NCBI GenBank assembly: GCA_023383705.1
Contig: JAHDYM010000018.1
Span: forward strand, 1 to 39,867
Direction: 5' to 3'
Length of the DNA stretch: 39,867 bases
From: Gammaproteobacteria bacterium
GTDB taxonomy: Bacteria > Pseudomonadota > Gammaproteobacteria > Steroidobacterales > GCA-2729495
Below, in pieces: positions 1-7,740 of this stretch (position 1 is its first letter; every line of letters begins with the position of its first letter). The position numbers and the translations under genes are program-made. Under the pieces are notes generated by a model. The model was given only the letters and a program-made list of their open reading frames with translations. It did no database searches and was not told the origin of the DNA.

Positions 1-41
1 GCTTTCCAAGCGTGCGCCTTCAGCCACTCGGCCACCTCTCC
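1..41 (-). tRNA. serT-like: tRNA-Ser (anticodon GGA), 5' half only; cut by window start
   Basis: Read on the minus strand, positions 41 to 1 give an acceptor strand GGAGAGG, then TG, a D-arm of the GCCGAGTGGCTGAAGGC type typical of class II tRNA-Ser, and an anticodon stem CACGC with loop TTGGAAA. The anticodon GGA lies at positions 7 to 5 and reads UCC/UCU serine codons. The variable arm, T arm and 3' end lie outside the window. The gene follows dapA and a small lipoprotein gene in the same direction, with about 70 bases between. Confidence 0.88.
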
Positions 42-111: not shown

Positions 112-384
112 TCAGTCAGCGGGCTTCTCTTTGCGGAAGTACTCCGGCGGCCGGTCCAGGCAATCGCTGACCACCCCGCCCTCACCTGCCGGCGGAGCTG
201 GTGGAACCTGCATCGTCGAGGAACGTTCCGGAGCATCCAGCCCCTCGGGAATCCTGAGCTCGGGCAGGCTGGTGCTCTGCTGATACTCCTTGGGCTTTGA
301 GCAACTCTTGTCGGGCGAGGAGGAAAAACAGCCCGCCAATGCCACGACCGAAAGCAACCCCAGCAGGCTGGCCCTGAACAACAA
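112..384 (-). CDS. short BamC-like outer-membrane lipoprotein (lasso region only)
   Basis: 90-residue lipoprotein: signal sequence with lipobox ALAGC and acylated Cys19. Residues 34-61 follow the spacing of the unstructured N-terminal region of BamC, which in E. coli wraps BamD: Y34, then L40-P-E-L43, P46, G48-L49, P52 and a final P61. The two helix-grip domains that make up most of the roughly 340-residue BamC are absent; the protein ends soon after the lasso-like segment with a Pro-rich stretch and one more Cys pair region (C28, C75). The start is TTG at 384 with AGGGGAG about nine bases upstream, one base after the dapA stop. The dapA-bamC order is the usual gammaproteobacterial one, which supports the assignment. 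What is seen is the lipobox and motif spacing; BamD binding is inferred. Confidence 0.72.
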   Translation of the reverse strand: MLFRASLLGLLSVVALAGCFSSSPDKSCSKPKEYQQSTSLPELRIPEGLDAPERSSTMQVPPAPPAGEGGVVSDCLDRPPEYFRKEKPAD

Positions 385-385
385 C

Positions 386-1285
386 TCAGGCTGCTCCCCT
401 GCCCACGCCAGTCAGCAGACCGGCACGGCTCATGGCCGATTCAACCCGCCCCCGAAAGGCATCGCTGAGCGGAGTCAGCGGCAGGCGCAGACCACCAGGA
501 ATAAGCCCCAGGCGCTCCAGGGCCCACTTGACGGGAATCGGGTTGGATTCGATGAACAGATCCTGATGCAGGCCGGCAAGACGCTCATCGAGTTCTGTTG
601 CCCGGGGCCGGTCGCCCTTGAGCGCGGCCTTGCACATTTCAGCCATCAGTGCCGGTGCGACGTTGGAGGTCACGGAGATCACCCCCTGCCCGCCCTGCAG
701 CATGAACTCGCAACCGGTCGCATCGTCACCGCTGAACAGCAGGAAATCCCCGCCACAGGACTCACGCAGTGGCTGCAAACGGCTCAGGTCGCCGGTCGCT
801 TCCTTGATGCCCACGATGCCCGGATGAGCGGCAAGCCGTGCGACCGTTGCGGTCTGCATGTCCACGCCGGTACGGCCGGGCACGTTATAGAGGATCAGTG
901 GCAACTCGATGGCATCGGCAATGGCGACGAAGTGCCGGTAAAGGCCTTCCTGGGTCGGCTTGTTGTAGTAGGGCGTGACGACCAGGTAACCCTTGATCGG
1001 GAACCCGGCAACGGCCCGGGACAAGTCGATGGTCTGCGCGGTGGAGTTTGATCCGGTACCGGCGATGACGGGGATCCGTCCGGCGGCGCGATGGGCGGCA
1101 ACGCGGATGACCTCGGCGTGCTCTGCCTTGGTGAGGGTACTGGCCTCGCCGGTAGTCCCCGCGATTACCAGGCCATCGGTCCCCTGCGCGACATGCCAGT
1201 CGACCAGCCGCTCCAGGCAGGCGAAATCCACCGCCCCGTCGTCATTCATGGGGGTGACCAGCGCGACCAGGCTGCCTGAGAACAT
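386..1285 (-). CDS. dapA: 4-hydroxy-tetrahydrodipicolinate synthase
   Basis: Cytoplasmic aldolase-type enzyme that condenses pyruvate with aspartate semialdehyde, the first committed step to diaminopimelate and lysine. The 299-residue TIM barrel keeps the E. coli numbering exactly: Schiff-base Lys161 in VGIKEATGD, the catalytic triad Thr44, Tyr107 and Tyr133, and Arg138 in NVPGRTG. The ATG at 1285 gives the normal MFSGSLVALVTPM start. The gene is divergent from gcvR and is followed after one base by the small BamC-like lipoprotein, so the two are probably translated from one message. Nothing unusual in length or active site. Confidence 0.97.
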   Translation of the reverse strand: MFSGSLVALVTPMNDDGAVDFACLERLVDWHVAQGTDGLVIAGTTGEASTLTKAEHAEVIRVAAHRAAGRIPVIAGTGSNSTAQTIDLSRAVAGFPIKGYLVVTPYYNKPTQEGLYRHFVAIADAIELPLILYNVPGRTGVDMQTATVARLAAHPGIVGIKEATGDLSRLQPLRESCGGDFLLFSGDDATGCEFMLQGGQGVISVTSNVAPALMAEMCKAALKGDRPRATELDERLAGLHQDLFIESNPIPVKWALERLGLIPGGLRLPLTPLSDAFRGRVESAMSRAGLLTGVGRGAA

Positions 1286-1430: not shown

Positions 1431-1958
1431 ATGGAAAAACTTCTGGCGGTAACAGCAATAGGCCCGGATCGCGCCGGCGTGGTTCGCGATCTCAGCCAGG
1501 CAATCAATGCTGCCGGCGGCAGCATCCGCGAAAGCCGCATGATCGCCCTGGGTACGGAGTTTGCCGTGATGATGCTGGTCTCCGGCAACTGGCATACCGT
1601 CGCCAAGCTGCAAAACAGCCTGCTGGCGCTCCAGCAGCAATCCGACCTGACGGTCACCGTACGCGAGACCCAGCCGCGTCCCGCCGAGGCGGCCGCGCCC
1701 TACACCATCGACGTCGTGACCCTTGACCACGAGGGTATCGTTTTCGGGCTGTCGAACTTTTTTGCCACCCGCAATCTCGAAATATCCGAGGTCAACACCC
1801 GACGCTACAATGCGCCGCATACCGGCGCGCTGATGTTCAGCGTGCAGATGACCGTGAACGTGCCACGTTCGGTGCACGTAGCCACCCTGCGCGAAGAATT
1901 CCTCGAGTATTGCGACGAACAGAACCTGGATGCCGTGATGGAACCGGCACACCGCTGA
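1431..1958 (+). CDS. gcvR: GcvR-type tandem ACT-domain regulator
   Basis: 175 residues with two ACT domains: the first about residues 4-75 (LLAVTAIGPDRAGVVRDLS), the second about 93-168 (TIDVVTLDHEGIVFGLSNFF). In E. coli GcvR has this length and architecture and antagonises GcvA, repressing the glycine cleavage operon when glycine is scarce by binding the amino acid through its ACT domains. No DNA-binding domain is present, so it should act through a protein partner; no gcvA is in the window. Position divergent from dapA and just before bcp is the conserved gammaproteobacterial arrangement. The ATG at 1431 is the only reasonable start. Confidence 0.88.
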   Translation: MEKLLAVTAIGPDRAGVVRDLSQAINAAGGSIRESRMIALGTEFAVMMLVSGNWHTVAKLQNSLLALQQQSDLTVTVRETQPRPAEAAAPYTIDVVTLDHEGIVFGLSNFFATRNLEISEVNTRRYNAPHTGALMFSVQMTVNVPRSVHVATLREEFLEYCDEQNLDAVMEPAHR

Positions 1959-1987: not shown

Positions 1988-2455
1988 ATGAGCGCAATCA
2001 AGATTGGCAAGGTCGTACCCGATTTCAGCGTGCCGGCAACCGGCAACCAGACCATCAGGCTCAAGGACCTGCGCGGGAAGAATGTGGTCGTGTATTTCTA
2101 CCCCAAGGACAACACGCCGGGGTGCACGACCGAAAGCTGCGACTTCGGCGCGCTGCACGGGAAATTCCGGAAGAAAAACACCGTGATACTCGGCGTATCC
2201 CGCGACAGCCTCGCCTCGCACGAGACGTTCAGGGCCAAATTCGAATTCCCCTTCGATCTGCTCTCCGATGGCGACGAAGCACTTTGCAGGCTGTTCGACG
2301 TGATCCGCGAAAAGAACATGTATGGAAAGAAAGTCTTCGGCATCGAGCGAAGCACCTTCCTGATCGACCCCGCAGGCAAACTCCAGCGCGAATGGCGCAA
2401 GGTGAAGGTGGAAGGTCACGCCGCCGAGGTGCTGGAGGCCATTGGCGCCGACTGA
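1988..2455 (+). CDS. bcp: thioredoxin-dependent peroxiredoxin (Bcp/PrxQ type)
   Basis: 155 residues, AhpC/TSA fold. It reduces H2O2 and organic hydroperoxides with electrons from thioredoxin. The peroxidatic Cys46 is in the TPGCT motif, preceded by YFYPKDN, and Cys51 five residues later is the resolving Cys of the atypical two-Cys PrxQ group. The ATG at 1988 is chosen because it places the conserved beta-strand start (IKIGKVVPDFSVP) correctly; an in-frame upstream ATG at 1910 would overlap the end of gcvR. The stop TGA shares its last base with the ATG of bepA, so the two are translationally coupled. Confidence 0.96.
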   Translation: MSAIKIGKVVPDFSVPATGNQTIRLKDLRGKNVVVYFYPKDNTPGCTTESCDFGALHGKFRKKNTVILGVSRDSLASHETFRAKFEFPFDLLSDGDEALCRLFDVIREKNMYGKKVFGIERSTFLIDPAGKLQREWRKVKVEGHAAEVLEAIGAD

Positions 2456-3930
2456 TGCGGCTGAGACGTTCAATTCTGGCGCTGGTGGCCAGCGGACTGG
2501 TCATCAACCCGCTGCCGGCTGCAAACAGCGACTTGCCGGACATCGGCAGCCCGGGCGACACGGTTCTTTCTCGGGATCTCGAACTGCAGATTGGCCGCAG
2601 CATTTACCGCAGCCTGGTCAATGCTGACCGCGTGATCAGTGATCCGGAGATCCAGGAATACGCCCAGGACATCGGACAGAAGCTTGCGATCCACGCGCAG
2701 GACGGCGATTTCCAGTTCAACTTCTTCGTTGTCGATGACAGTGCAATCAACGCCTTCGCCCTGCCCGGTGGCTACATTGGCGTGCATTCAGGGCTGATTC
2801 TTGCAACAAAATCAGAAAGCGAACTGGCCGGCGTCATCGCCCATGAAATCTCGCATGTCACGCAGCGGCACATATCCCGTGCGGTTTATGCGAACCAGCG
2901 CAACAGCATCCTCAGCATGGCGGCAATGCTGGGCGCCATCCTGCTTGGCGCAGCCAGTGGCAGCAGCGATGCCATAACCGGCGCCATTGCCACCGCACAG
3001 GGCGTTGCAGCCCAGCAGCAGATCAACTTCACCCGGGCCAACGAATACGAAGCCGACCGGGTCGGGGTTGGCGTCCTGGCTGCTGCCGGTTTCGATCCAC
3101 AGGCCATGCCGTCATTCTTCGAGACCCTCGCTAGGCAGAGCGGCCCGCTCGAGAGCCAGGCACCGGAGTTCCTGCGCACGCATCCGGTGACGGTCAACCG
3201 CATCGCCGAGACGCGCGAGCGCGCAGCATCCCTGCCCCGCCCCGAGGTCGACGATACGGCTGGCTACTCGCTGACCAAGGCGCGAATCCGCGTACTTTCC
3301 AGCCCCACGCCGCAGAAGGCCCTGGAGTTTTTCCTCGGCGAACAACAGGACCCGAAGAGCATCGGCAATCTGGGTACCGATTACGGCATTGCCCTGGTAC
3401 GCATGCAATTGGGTGAGTACGGTGTCGCACGCGACCTGTTCCGCAACCTGCGCGCTGCGCACCCCGGCGTGATTCCCTTTCATACCGGCCTCGCAAATGC
3501 GGAACTGGCCCTTGGCAACAAGGCGCCGGCATTCCTGATCTACGACCAGGCGATGACGCTGTTTCCCCGCAACGTGCCGCTGACGGTCCACTATGCCGAG
3601 GCGCTGATGGCCAACGGGAATCCGCAGAAGGCGCACAGCATCCTGCTCGACCTGTTGAACAATGTGCCGCCCACTGCACAGCAGGTACGCCTGATCGCCC
3701 TGGCAGCCAGCGCTGCCGGCGATACCGCAGAGGCGCACTACTACATGGCCGAGTTGCACCTGATCAAGGGGGATGCAACGATGGCCGCCGACCAGCTCAG
3801 GCTGGCCCTGTCCATTCCAGGTCTGAACAGCGTACAGAAGGCCCGCTTCAGCGCGCGGCTGGACCAGATCATGGAATGGGTGCAAAAAGAACAGAGAGCA
3901 AAACGCGCAAGCGACGGAAATGCACAATGA
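2455..3930 (+). CDS. bepA: BepA-type periplasmic M48 metalloprotease/chaperone with TPRs
   Basis: 491 residues. An N-terminal signal peptide (about residues 1-23, ending PLPAAN) exports it to the periplasm. The M48 zinc protease domain carries H130-E131-x-x-H134 in AHEISHVTQRH and the downstream NEYEADR motif near residues 196-202 that supplies the third ligand; His in the LRTHPVT segment matches the regulatory fourth ligand of E. coli BepA. The C-terminal half, from about residue 300, is alpha-helical TPR repeats. In E. coli BepA (YfgC) assists LptD maturation and degrades stalled outer-membrane proteins. It overlaps bcp by one base and mlaA by four, placing it with outer-membrane homeostasis genes. 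The ATG at 2455 fits both coupling and signal peptide. Confidence 0.93.
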   Translation: MRLRRSILALVASGLVINPLPAANSDLPDIGSPGDTVLSRDLELQIGRSIYRSLVNADRVISDPEIQEYAQDIGQKLAIHAQDGDFQFNFFVVDDSAINAFALPGGYIGVHSGLILATKSESELAGVIAHEISHVTQRHISRAVYANQRNSILSMAAMLGAILLGAASGSSDAITGAIATAQGVAAQQQINFTRANEYEADRVGVGVLAAAGFDPQAMPSFFETLARQSGPLESQAPEFLRTHPVTVNRIAETRERAASLPRPEVDDTAGYSLTKARIRVLSSPTPQKALEFFLGEQQDPKSIGNLGTDYGIALVRMQLGEYGVARDLFRNLRAAHPGVIPFHTGLANAELALGNKAPAFLIYDQAMTLFPRNVPLTVHYAEALMANGNPQKAHSILLDLLNNVPPTAQQVRLIALAASAAGDTAEAHYYMAELHLIKGDATMAADQLRLALSIPGLNSVQKARFSARLDQIMEWVQKEQRAKRASDGNAQ

Positions 3931-4685
3931 AAGACCTGCGTAAATCGAGCCTGGCGCTTGCAGTTGCCCTGGCACTTGTCATCAGCAGTGGTTGCGCCAG
4001 CAGCAAGGTTGTACAGGACCAGGAAGCGTGGGATCCGATCGAACCCTTCAACCGGGCCATGTACAAGGTCAACGACATCGGCGACCGGTACGTGCTGCGG
4101 CCGGTTGCGGTTGGCTATGAACGGGGGCTGCCACCCCAGATGCGCAACGGTATCCAGAATTTCTTCAGCAATATCAGGTACCCAATCACCATTGTTAACA
4201 ACTTCCTGCAGGGAAAGTTTCGGGATGGTGGTCGCGATACCGGCCGCTTCGTGCTGAATACGACGGTCGGCCTGTTTGGTTTTTTCGACCCGGCAACCCG
4301 CATCGGCCTGGAGGAAAACGACGAGGACTTTGGGCAGACGCTGGGCAAGTGGGGCATCGGTGAAGGACCATATATCGTGTTGCCCGTGTTTGGCCCCGGC
4401 ACGCTGCGCAGCTTCACTGGCAATGTTGCCGATTCGCCATTGACGCCGCTGGTCGACGTCACCACGAGCGACGTCGATATCGCCTGGGCGCTCTGGTCGC
4501 TGTACCAGGTGGACAAGCGTTCGCGACTGCTGGACGCCGACCAGCAGGTTTACGAAGCCTATGATCCCTACCTGTTCGTGCGCGATGCCTACCTGCAGAA
4601 CCAGCGCTACAAGCTGTACGACGGCAATGTGCCCGAAGACGACAGCTACCTCGACGAGGACGAGGCAGAGGACGAGGCCGAATAG
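3927..4685 (+). CDS. mlaA: MlaA (VacJ) phospholipid-removal lipoprotein
   Basis: 252-residue outer-membrane lipoprotein that takes mislocalised phospholipids from the outer leaflet and passes them to MlaC. Signal peptide with Cys23 after VISSG (Ser at -3, slightly degenerate lipobox). The family hallmark EAWDPIEPFNRAMYKVND begins right after the mature N-terminus, and the NFFSNIRYPITIVNNFLQGK and GLFGFFDPA segments form the amphipathic ring that lies in the membrane. The C-terminus is a strongly acidic tail (EDDSYLDEDEAEDEAE). The start overlaps the bepA stop by four bases. The stop lies one base from the stop of the convergent mlaB. Confidence 0.96.
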   Translation: MKDLRKSSLALAVALALVISSGCASSKVVQDQEAWDPIEPFNRAMYKVNDIGDRYVLRPVAVGYERGLPPQMRNGIQNFFSNIRYPITIVNNFLQGKFRDGGRDTGRFVLNTTVGLFGFFDPATRIGLEENDEDFGQTLGKWGIGEGPYIVLPVFGPGTLRSFTGNVADSPLTPLVDVTTSDVDIAWALWSLYQVDKRSRLLDADQQVYEAYDPYLFVRDAYLQNQRYKLYDGNVPEDDSYLDEDEAEDEAE

Positions 4686-4686
4686 C

Positions 4687-4995
4687 TCAGCCGCCGTTAC
4701 CGGTCACCAGCATCTCTTCGACACCGCTGAGCCTGGCAATTGCCAGCAGCTTTTCCGGCAGGGCCGTGAACCGCACGCTGCGCCCCTCCGCCTGCCCCAG
4801 CCTCAGCCATTCAAGCAGCAGGGCAAGGCCGGCGCTGTCGACCTTCGTCACGCCACTGAGGTCGATGGAAACCCCGGAAGTGCCGGCAAACATGCTGCGG
4901 CCAGCATCCAGCAACTGGCCGGCTGTCGAGAAAACCAGCGGCCCGCTGAGGGCAAGGCGCCCTGGTGCTTCGGACCGCAATACCGGCGGGTTCAT
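4687..4995 (-). CDS. mlaB: MlaB STAS-domain subunit of the Mla ABC transporter
   Basis: 102-residue cytoplasmic STAS protein that binds the MlaF ATPase and stabilises the MlaFEDB complex. Residues 43-60 carry the STAS signature IDLSGVTKVDSAGLALLL, with Ser54 in the position corresponding to the conserved hydroxyl residue of STAS domains. It is the last gene of mlaFEDCB and overlaps mlaC by four bases. The short length and gene position make the call secure despite low sequence conservation of STAS proteins. Confidence 0.92.
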   Translation of the reverse strand: MNPPVLRSEAPGRLALSGPLVFSTAGQLLDAGRSMFAGTSGVSIDLSGVTKVDSAGLALLLEWLRLGQAEGRSVRFTALPEKLLAIARLSGVEEMLVTGNGG

Positions 4996-5636
4996 CTGGC
5001 TGCCGCACCCGGTGCTGGCGGCCTGGCAAGCGTCCCGGCGTCGAGCCTGGCGGCATCCGCCTGCAGCCGGGCGATCACGGCGTCGATGCCCTTGGCCTTG
5101 ATTTCGGCATTGAACTGGTTCCGGTAGTTCTGCACGTAGGAAATCCCTTCGATACGCACATCGAAAGCGCGCCAGCCGTCCTTGGTCTGGTGCAGGCTGT
5201 AATTGACCGGCAGGCTGGTGCCATCGTCGAGTTGCATGACGCTCCTTACCACCGTGTTCTTCGGGTCGGGTACGGCGGCCGCCATCGGCAGGATCCTGAC
5301 CTTGTCGCGCTCGAAGCGCAGCACGTAGCGTGCGTAGCTGCGCAACAGGAAGTTGTAGAAGGTATCGATGAATTCCTTCCGCTGCTCGGCAGTTGCGGTA
5401 CGCCAGTGCTTGCCCAGTACGAGACGGCCGGCATAGTCGGTATCGAACACGGGCAGGAACACCTCGTCCACCAGCTTGTAGAGATCGGCCGGATTGGCTT
5501 CAAGGCGGGTCCGCTGGCCCTCGATGCGTTGCGCAAGCGTTTCCGCGGTCTCGGTGACCACCTGGTCAGGCGTCCGGCTGTCCGCCTGCGCCACGGCAGA
5601 CAACAGCAGCAGGCACAACGTTGCAAGAATCTTCAT
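4992..5636 (-). CDS. mlaC: MlaC periplasmic phospholipid carrier
   Basis: 214 residues with a cleavable signal peptide (residues 1-18, SAVAQA before DS). Belongs to the Tol_Tol_Ttg2 family; it ferries phospholipid through the periplasm between MlaA and MlaFEDB. Visible family features are LVDEVFLPVFDTDYAGRLVLG, the FIDTFYNFLLRSYARYVL helix, and the GWRAFDVRIEGISYVQNYRNQF strand-helix near the C-terminus. The tail is Ala/Pro-rich and probably disordered. 14 bases after mlaD and overlapping mlaB. Confidence 0.95.
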   Translation of the reverse strand: MKILATLCLLLLSAVAQADSRTPDQVVTETAETLAQRIEGQRTRLEANPADLYKLVDEVFLPVFDTDYAGRLVLGKHWRTATAEQRKEFIDTFYNFLLRSYARYVLRFERDKVRILPMAAAVPDPKNTVVRSVMQLDDGTSLPVNYSLHQTKDGWRAFDVRIEGISYVQNYRNQFNAEIKAKGIDAVIARLQADAARLDAGTLARPPAPGAAAR

Positions 5637-5650
5637 GGAACCGTCATCCT

Positions 5651-6145
5651 CTACTCTTCAACGGAAGGCGATGCCCCGGTATCACCCTCCTCCGCCTTGT
5701 TGAACAGGAACTTCCCGATCAACTGCTCAAGCACCACAGCCGACTGGGTGATCTGCAGCTCGCTGCCTTCCTTGAGATAGCTGTCGGAACCACCGGCGCC
5801 GATACCCACATATTTGCTGCCCAGCAAGCCGGCAGTCAGTATGCTGGCGTCCGAATCATCGGGGATGCGGCTGAACTGGCTGTTAATGCGCAGCGTGACC
5901 AGGGCGTCGAGACGGTCATTGTCAAATTCGATGCGCTCGACACGACCGATGTTCACGCCGGACATCGTGACCTGCGAACGGACCTTGAGGCCGGCCACGT
6001 CCTCGAAGCGTGCCGTGACCCGATAACCCTCGTCACCGGCATATTCGTCGAGATCCGTGGTCTGGGTCGCCAGAAAAAGCAGGGCCGCAAAACCCAGCAA
6101 TACGAACAGCCCGGTACCGAGCTCACGTGGTCTGCTGCTTTCCAT
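5651..6145 (-). CDS. mlaD: MlaD MCE-domain subunit
   Basis: 164 residues: one N-terminal membrane anchor (about residues 10-27), then a single MCE domain (about residues 38-118) with the typical YRVTARFEDVAGLKVRSQVTMSGV start and a LGSKYVGIGAGG strand. MlaD forms a hexameric ring that channels lipid between MlaC and the MlaE permease. The C-terminal region after about residue 118 is shorter and acidic. Spacing of 12 bases from mlaE supports cotranscription. Confidence 0.95.
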   Translation of the reverse strand: MESSRPRELGTGLFVLLGFAALLFLATQTTDLDEYAGDEGYRVTARFEDVAGLKVRSQVTMSGVNIGRVERIEFDNDRLDALVTLRINSQFSRIPDDSDASILTAGLLGSKYVGIGAGGSDSYLKEGSELQITQSAVVLEQLIGKFLFNKAEEGDTGASPSVEE

Positions 6146-6157
6146 CCCGTTTGGTCC

Positions 6158-6925
6158 TCAAATCAGAAACGCGGTGATCATGTAGTCGAGTATCAGCACG
6201 ACTATCGAAGTGGTAACCACGGTACGCGTGGTGGCCATGCCGACGCCCTCGGCGGTGGGCGCGCAATTGTAGCCTTCATAGACCGCAATCAGGCTGGCTG
6301 CGATGCCAAACACGATGCTCTTCGACACGCCTTCGCCGATATCCTCGGGATCGACATACTCCTGCATCTGCGACCAGAAGGCACCGCCATCCACGCCCAT
6401 GATGTACACGCCGATGAACCAGGCGCCGAGTATGCCGATGGCATTGAATACTGCAGTCAGCAACGGGACTGAAATGGCGCCACCGACAAAGCGCGGCGCG
6501 ACGATGCGCCGGATCGGATCGATGGCCATCACCTCCAGGGCGGCGAGCTGGTCGGTCGCACGCATCAGGCCAATCTCGGAAGCAAGGGCAGTGCCGGCCC
6601 GTCCGGCAAACAGCAGGGCGGTAACCACCGGCCCGAGTTCCTTGATCAGTGTCAGCGCGACACCCGCCCCGAGTATGTCCTCCTGGCGCAGGCGGGCCAG
6701 CGAATCGTAGCCCTGCAGGCCGATCACCATGCCGACGAAAAAGGCCGAGGTCATGATGATCACCAGCGACAGCACGCCCGCATTGTGAATCTGTGCCGAG
6801 ATCAGTCGCGGACGGGTGAATGCCGCCGGGCACTGCGCCAGGATCTCGCCAAGGAACAGCACCACCGCGCCGAGCTTGCGCAGCGCGGCCAACTGGCTGT
6901 TCCACAACTGCCTGAACAGGGCCAT
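6158..6925 (-). CDS. mlaE: MlaE permease
   Basis: 255-residue inner-membrane permease of the MlaE/TRAP-ABC family. Family features include the ITMTSAFFVGMVIGLQGYDSL-like segment near residues 58-78 (here beginning IIMTSAFF), LIKELGPVVTALLFAGRAGTALASEIG near 93-118 which couples to the ATPase, and MRATDQLAALEVMAIDP. Five to six hydrophobic helices are visible. Its ATG overlaps the mlaF stop by one base (TGATG). Confidence 0.95.
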   Translation of the reverse strand: MALFRQLWNSQLAALRKLGAVVLFLGEILAQCPAAFTRPRLISAQIHNAGVLSLVIIMTSAFFVGMVIGLQGYDSLARLRQEDILGAGVALTLIKELGPVVTALLFAGRAGTALASEIGLMRATDQLAALEVMAIDPIRRIVAPRFVGGAISVPLLTAVFNAIGILGAWFIGVYIMGVDGGAFWSQMQEYVDPEDIGEGVSKSIVFGIAASLIAVYEGYNCAPTAEGVGMATTRTVVTTSIVVLILDYMITAFLI

Positions 6926-7740
6926 CAGGAGCTACCCAGCAACTGCTGCCGGTAGTCCGGCGCGGGATAATGAAACGGCACCGGCCCGTCGGCGGCACCG
7001 GTCATGAACTGCCGCACCAGCTCGGAGTCGCTGTCGGCAAGCTCGTCTGGGCGGCCACTGGCGATAACCCTGCCTTCCGAGAGCACCAGACAGTGGTCGG
7101 CGATCTGGGAAATCTCGGCCACGTCATGTGAAACGACCACGCTGGTGAGTCCGAGTGCATCGTTGTTGAGGCGGATCAGCCTGAGGACCACGCCCAGCGA
7201 GATCGGATCAAGCCCGGAGAAAGGCTCGTCGTACAGCAGGAGTTCGGGGTCCAGCACCATGGCCCGGGCCATCGCCACGCGCCGCGCCATGCCACCCGAC
7301 AGCTCGGAGGGCATGAGACCGGCCGCACCGCGCAAGCCAACCGACTGCAATTTGGTCAGGACCACATTGCGCAGCAGGCGTTCGGGCAGGCTGGTGTTCT
7401 CCCGTACCGGGAACGCGACGTTCTCGAAAACGTTGAAGTCAGTGAGCAGCGCGCTGTTCTGGAACAACATGCCCATCTGCCTGCGCAGTGCATAGAGATC
7501 CGGACGGGACAACCGGTTGACCTCCTGCCCGGCCACCCGCACGCTACCCTCGTCGGGCCTGAGCTGCCCGGTCAGCATGCGCAGAAGGGTGGTCTTGCCG
7601 CAGCCGCTCGGCCCCATGATCGCCGTGATGCTGCCACGTGGAATCGCCAGCTCCAGTCCATCGAAGATCACGCGGCTGCCGCGTGAAAAGCGCAGGCCGC
7701 TGATCTCGATCAGATTGTCAACAGCCTGAGATGGTTTCAC
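6925..7740 (-). CDS. mlaF: MlaF ABC ATPase
   Basis: 271-residue ATP-binding subunit that powers phospholipid transport by the Mla complex. Walker A GPSGCGKTT near residues 43-51, signature LSGGM, Walker B LLLYDEP with FSGLDP, and the H-loop VVSHD are all intact. The C-terminus extends past the NBD (GPVPFHYPAPDYRQQLLG), matching the MlaF tail that reaches over the neighbouring subunit and MlaB. The start is GTG at 7740; no good alternative exists before Walker A. It is the first gene of mlaFEDCB and is divergent from sufR across 135 bases. Confidence 0.95.
   Translation of the reverse strand: MKPSQAVDNLIEISGLRFSRGSRVIFDGLELAIPRGSITAIMGPSGCGKTTLLRMLTGQLRPDEGSVRVAGQEVNRLSRPDLYALRRQMGMLFQNSALLTDFNVFENVAFPVRENTSLPERLLRNVVLTKLQSVGLRGAAGLMPSELSGGMARRVAMARAMVLDPELLLYDEPFSGLDPISLGVVLRLIRLNNDALGLTSVVVSHDVAEISQIADHCLVLSEGRVIASGRPDELADSDSELVRQFMTGAADGPVPFHYPAPDYRQQLLGSS

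Follow-up and report, generated by a model that had tools for sequence, protein, structure and literature searches.

The closest described counterpart of the protein considered here is the E. coli lipoprotein BamC. In structures of the BAM complex, the BamC lasso comprises residues 32-85 (PMC5056442) and coils round BamD (PMC13067283, PMC5056442). The first of two helix-grip domains starts at residue 101, according to a passage in PMC3359395, and a helix-grip domain is described as moving with SurA in E. coli (PMC11970506). In work with purified BamD, position 114 of this protein, at the BamC-binding site, is reported to crosslink to substrate; in vivo it did not (PMC10945584). This crosslinking suggests that the lasso covers a surface otherwise able to bind unfolded outer membrane proteins. 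One text states that BamC occurs in all beta- and gammaproteobacteria (PMC3359395). Note that, from 293 gammaproteobacterial genomes, Table 1 of that paper lists 187 BamC hits, and that its motif analysis discarded truncated sequences. The same paper describes BamF of Alphaproteobacteria. This is a lipoprotein whose short N-terminal motif is akin to the BamC lasso and precedes another domain. The locus differs; in C. crescentus the gene comes after that for signal peptidase II. In the open-licence literature, searched as titles, abstract openings and passages, we found no description of a BamC consisting of the lasso alone.

Our subject is a gene in a window of 39,867 nucleotides, meaning the whole stretch of DNA analysed. 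The gene, here called short bamC, lies at 112..384 on the minus strand, starts with TTG and encodes a lipoprotein of 90 residues (344 for E. coli BamC, NP_416972.4). Residues 1-18 (331..384, minus strand) are a signal peptide with lipobox LAG-C. Cys19 (328-330, minus strand) is predicted to be lipidated from the lipobox LAGC, residues 16-19, and is invariant among 17 short forms of the host order (profile A1, see below). Position +2 is Phe, without the Asp inner-membrane retention signal. An earlier note on this DNA had described a 90-residue open reading frame after dapA with a lipobox and a BamC-like spacing. All are exactly present, with the pattern reading Y34-x5-L40-P-E-L43-x2-P46-x-G48-L49-x2-P52.

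The gene order around short bamC is that of E. coli MG1655, bamC-dapA-gcvR-bcp. Upstream of short bamC, after a gap of 1 nt, is dapA (386..1285, minus strand; DHDPS, E 2.2e-100). The conserved block continues with genes for a gcvR-like ACT protein (1431..1958, plus strand) and a bcp-like peroxiredoxin (1988..2455, plus strand). More broadly, dapA neighbours bamC in 41 of 42 full-length forms and in 37 of 38 short forms of the order examined. As a separate observation, genes for outer membrane upkeep cluster around bamC-dapA in the window. A gene for an M48 protease with TPRs (BepA-like) is nearby, at 2452-3930, and an mlaA-like gene, identified by eye, faces a run of mla-like genes at 3876-7740.

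Profile matches in both directions link the product to BamC. Residues 33-81 match positions 1-50 of 323 in Pfam PF06804 (BamC) with an E-value of 3.6e-4 and 20 bits, under the curated cut-off of 25 bits. Similarly, the match to NCBIfam PRK11679 (BamC; E 6.7e-5) scores 21.9 bits, far under the full-length cut-off of 371 bits. The cut-offs are fitted to the whole protein and so are missed by a match of 50 positions. The reverse comparison used profile A1, built from 17 short forms of the host order only, in which ten columns are invariant. Against 177,635 PDB sequences, the top matches of A1 are BamC chains (8adg_C, E 3.4e-5; 5d0o_C, E 3.5e-5; 9cmw_C, E 5.2e-4). Across the class, A1 matches 191 of 370 genomes at E <= 0.01, and many of these matches sit at the N-terminus of full-length BamC open reading frames. 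Finally, we scored the window protein with a profile built from E. coli BamC and 29 further full-length BamCs. The match covers model positions 8-65 of 371 and reaches 36.1 bits.

Alignment with E. coli BamC is consistent with these scores. The lasso core, residues 28-61 (202..303, minus strand), aligns with E. coli residues 35-68. Shared positions are Tyr34/Tyr41, Leu40/Leu47, Glu42-Leu43/Glu49-Leu50, Pro46/Pro53, Gly48/Gly55, Pro52/Pro59, Pro61/Pro68 and Pro79-Pro80/Pro84-Pro85. The last of these are part of the segment C-L-D-R-P-P-E-Y-F, residues 75-83 (136..162, minus strand), where RPP is opposite E. coli Arg83-Pro84-Pro85. Like BamC, then, the protein is a lipoprotein encoded after dapA, with a lasso that has Tyr, Leu-x-Glu-Leu, Pro-x-Gly and Pro, and a closing Arg-Pro-Pro. 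It differs in having no helix-grip domains and in having two additional cysteines, Cys28 and Cys75.

A chance match is possible for short sequences rich in proline. The gene could instead encode an unrelated small lipoprotein of the LptM type, which happens to follow dapA and resembles BamC only in its lipobox and prolines. Among PDB sequences, A1 does match a 67-residue chain named 'Lipoprotein' (9leg_D, E 0.12), which we take to be LptM from its length. However, BamC chains outrank 9leg_D, with E-values down to 3.4e-5, and the window protein has no match to LptM (PF13627) up to an E-value of 1. Furthermore, the similarity spans the lasso through to RPP, with invariant columns, and nearly all full-length forms and short forms of the order occupy the bamC locus, as counted above. 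We consider chance resemblance highly improbable.

The profile of full-length BamCs finds no helix-grip match in the window protein. Since the E. coli lasso ends at residue 85 and helix-grip domain 1 starts at 101, the window protein stops between the two, at the place where that domain would start. Beyond the stop, by comparison with congeners, is the 5' part of a tRNA-Ser(GGA) gene (1..41, minus strand), cut by the contig end and 70 bp from the stop codon. Note that ARAGORN called no tRNA-Ser(GGA) in the window, this fragment included. In one congener (L003), tRNA-Ser(GGA) starts 72 bp beyond the short bamC stop. The tRNA gene is intact at the locus in 10 of 13 loci scanned, the window counted among the 13, and this leaves no space for hidden helix-grip domains. 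The absence of these domains, stated in the earlier note, is thus borne out by the lack of a match and by the stop followed by the tRNA fragment. These observations also bear on an artefact, in which short bamC would be a truncated or frameshifted full-length gene near a contig end. The gene is only 111 bases from such an end, in an assembly of 162 contigs. Nevertheless, the stop is clean, the tRNA-Ser follows as in congeners, and the same short gene is found in two relatives with single-contig genomes (G010 and G017), which refutes this explanation for practical purposes.

Lasso, lipobox and locus are those of BamC, and the two folded domains are missing. Hence, we regard the protein as a reduced orthologue rather than a standard BamC. 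As judged from its sequence, the gene is a bamC orthologue that covers the N-terminal lasso alone.

A full-length BamC might be encoded elsewhere. In the host genome, PF06804 matches only short bamC, so the search for a second copy, suggested in the earlier note, found none. Because this metagenome-assembled genome (MAG) also has no BamD over the cut-off (G000; TIGR03302), the absence of full-length BamC from it would alone say little. The matter is settled by relatives, since no BamC match exceeds the Pfam cut-off in any of 196 genomes of the host order. A set of 60 genomes likewise gave none. E. coli, among the controls, does exceed the cut-off. Across the class, 238 of 370 genomes reach it. 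The lasso gene itself was found in 184 of the 196 genomes, and in 58 of 60 genera; for genomes at least 90% complete and at most 5% contaminated the count is 141 of 145. No lasso match was found in the other 12 of 196. Profile matches in both directions, synteny, the lack of a full-length BamC and conservation across the order all support what the earlier note had proposed, namely BamC reduced to its lasso. Three loci (L016, L025 and L027) match other parts of the BamC profile and have no dapA beside them; these were taken as chance and left uncounted. Region L165, a guess without a match, was likewise excluded from the counts.

The lack of BamD here most probably reflects a gap in the assembly. 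Where tested, BamD is essential. BamA was found in the host genome. Among 40 genomes in the search of relatives, 33 have an ordinary BamD over the TIGR03302 cut-off (the host is one of the 40 but not of the 33), and these include five of seven congeners. A PF13525 match in the host genome was considered as a candidate BamD and proved to be a CpoB-like protein.

The two additional cysteines are newly recognised here, and the earlier note does not mention them. The first, Cys28 (301..303, minus strand), is six residues before the lasso Tyr, opposite E. coli Val35, and is invariant in the order sample. The second, Cys75, is in C-L-x-x-P-P and opposite E. coli Leu80. The pair thus aligns with residues 35 and 80 of E. 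coli BamC, the two ends of the lasso. A regular expression detects both cysteines in all 46 order members examined (38 short and 8 fused to another domain, see below) and in none of the 42 full-length BamCs examined. The set of 42 excludes L074, which has no lasso match. Elsewhere in the class, among the matches listed, 8 of 28 short forms have the pair and one more has the first cysteine only; note that these short forms are open frames short by look. In the periplasm, Cys28 and Cys75 probably form a disulfide. The BamD sequences read, from 19 of 20 loci, have no further cysteine common to all, so a bond within the peptide is likelier than one to BamD.

The lasso also occurs in other contexts. 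Besides standing alone, it can be joined to both helix-grip domains, to a single one or to an NTF2-like domain. In the host order, 8 of 46 members examined have the lasso followed by an NTF2-like domain (L002, L010, L015, L017, L020, L026, L167 and L168, in families f5, f8, f9, f11 and f12). These fusions are absent from the earlier note and are newly recognised here. Pfam Cds6_C (PF24125) exceeds its curated cut-off in three of five fused proteins scanned and is under it in the other two. A profile made from the eight fused proteins scores each of them above 130 bits, as it must by construction. The window protein has no counterpart of this domain. Outside these fusions, six proteins (L141, L142, L153, L157, L158 and L159) have the lasso and the second helix-grip domain only, at model positions of about 240-370, in open frames of about 190-270 residues. 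They belong to a class of nine with a single helix-grip domain, in which profile support for that domain extends to these six, is partial for L155 and is lacking for L140 and L154; the latter three were assigned by length. Contig ends or a possible break make three further loci (L151, L152 and L156) ambiguous, and these were left out of the classes.

We now consider the direction of change. Lasso-only forms could be reduced or, alternatively, BamC may have begun as a lasso-only lipoprotein and gained its helix-grip domains later, in lineages other than the host order, which would have kept the old state. Some evidence is compatible with the latter. Lasso-only BamCs occur in many families, and the N-terminal motif of BamF is described as related to that of BamC while its C-terminal domain is different (PMC3359395). 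Moreover, the best stop-free match of A1 outside the class is the N-terminus of a BamF (G818, E 0.013), in weak agreement with the motif published for BamC and BamF. However, it is one of just eight weak matches (E 0.004-0.09), and no convincing lasso, or reliable lasso-only gene, was found outside the class in 396 genomes of the phylum. The BamF scores are low, partly due to the signal peptide. BamF was also considered as a homologue of short BamC and set aside, given weak scores only. PF11233 (DUF3035) has no match in the window protein or in genomes G000, G010 and G017, and no cysteine pair was noticed in six BamF sequences read.

A tree of rpoB, from 28 selected genomes, speaks more directly to the question. 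Two of the 30 genomes entered, G046 and G305, were left out for want of a match, and the tree was rooted on two genomes from outside the class. The host order is monophyletic (100/100). A clade at 95/94 unites it with the remaining cysteine-pair lineages and with two genomes classed as having a single helix-grip domain, one (G511) with profile support and the other (G205) by length only. Full-length lineages are the sister group of this clade (91/94) and also make up the deepest branches. Hence, the order is nested among lineages with full-length BamC, and reduction fits better than an ancestral form. Helix-grip presence needs four changes on this tree, and loss is favoured. Note that the tree is of one gene and has several weak inner branches. 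A tree of DapA (122 rows, unrooted) scatters short forms from outside the order among full-length forms, and joins most short forms of the order with full forms of the E. coli type. Shortening does happen. Family f126 holds one full-length form (L122, in G488) and two short forms without the cysteine pair (L136, in G305; L137, in G407), and these short forms are a recent reduction. Family f43 is another separate short lineage, with lasso-only BamCs of 82-83 residues, also without the cysteine pair, in genomes of about 1.5-1.8 Mb (L131, L132 and L133). Taken with the joining in the DapA tree, the reliance of the rpoB tree on a single gene with weak inner branches leads us to keep an ancestral lasso as an unlikely yet live alternative. 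Of the two readings offered in the earlier note, the minimal part of BamC is thus favoured and the ancestral form is not.

If the gene is reduced, it could be a decaying remnant, in which case the lasso is a functionless residue of a dying bamC. Loss of BamC is described as having a slight effect in E. coli (PMC13067283), and the DapA tree indicates that short forms arose more than once. The wide retention of the gene in the order (184 of 196 genomes, 58 of 60 genera) argues against decay, as do the ten invariant columns and purifying selection between close congeners. For three close congener pairs, dN/dS is 0.13/2.25 (where dS is close to saturation), 0.19/0.97 and 0.18/1.29. For a fourth, more distant pair (L014), the values are 0.62/1.00 and constraint is scarcely visible outside C-L-x-R-P-P. 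We think decay very unlikely. Our best overall explanation, to which we assign a probability of roughly 80%, is that the window gene is the host bamC, reduced to its BamD-binding segment.

By analogy with the E. coli structures, short BamC most likely binds BamD. AlphaFold2 modelled the single chain, from 13 sequences, as unfolded (pLDDT 66, pTM 0.17), with the highest local pLDDT (80) over residues 21-30 of the mature peptide. An unfolded chain is expected of a peptide ordered only on a partner. We propose that short BamC is exported, would be lipidated on Cys19 and would be anchored at the inner face of the outer membrane. Some 70 unfolded residues may then lie on the TPR face of BamD, like residues 32-85 of E. 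coli BamC. A Cys28-Cys75 disulfide would close a loop of about 48 residues, holding the peptide on BamD without helix-grip domains. Presumably, these domains disappeared in an ancestor shared by the order and its closest relatives and, in some families, an NTF2-like domain may have replaced them. Short BamC would be expected to cover BamD in the manner of the E. coli lasso and to have no further role. The window protein lacks the moving, SurA-linked helix-grip domain of E. coli BamC.

More tentatively, and at somewhat less than even odds, the lasso might be a transferable tag for docking on BamD that predates any particular cargo. In different lineages it would carry both helix-grip domains, a single one, an NTF2-like domain or no cargo, with BamF maybe another case. 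In the host order and its nearest relatives, the lasso would now be a disulfide-closed loop on BamD. This would make the folded domains dispensable, and fix the face of BamD that is under the control of a mobile BamC in E. coli.

A BamC consisting of the lasso alone, throughout an order, qualifies the claim that BamC occurs in all beta- and gammaproteobacteria. It is also a natural experiment that parts the lasso from the helix-grip domains; what selection retains is the work of the lasso. The prediction is that the E. coli lasso, by itself, should supply a distinct function. Conversely, roles proposed for the helix-grip domains, such as movement with SurA and surface exposure, become lineage-specific. 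The cysteine pair and the exchange for an NTF2-like domain offer new, directly testable handles on both.
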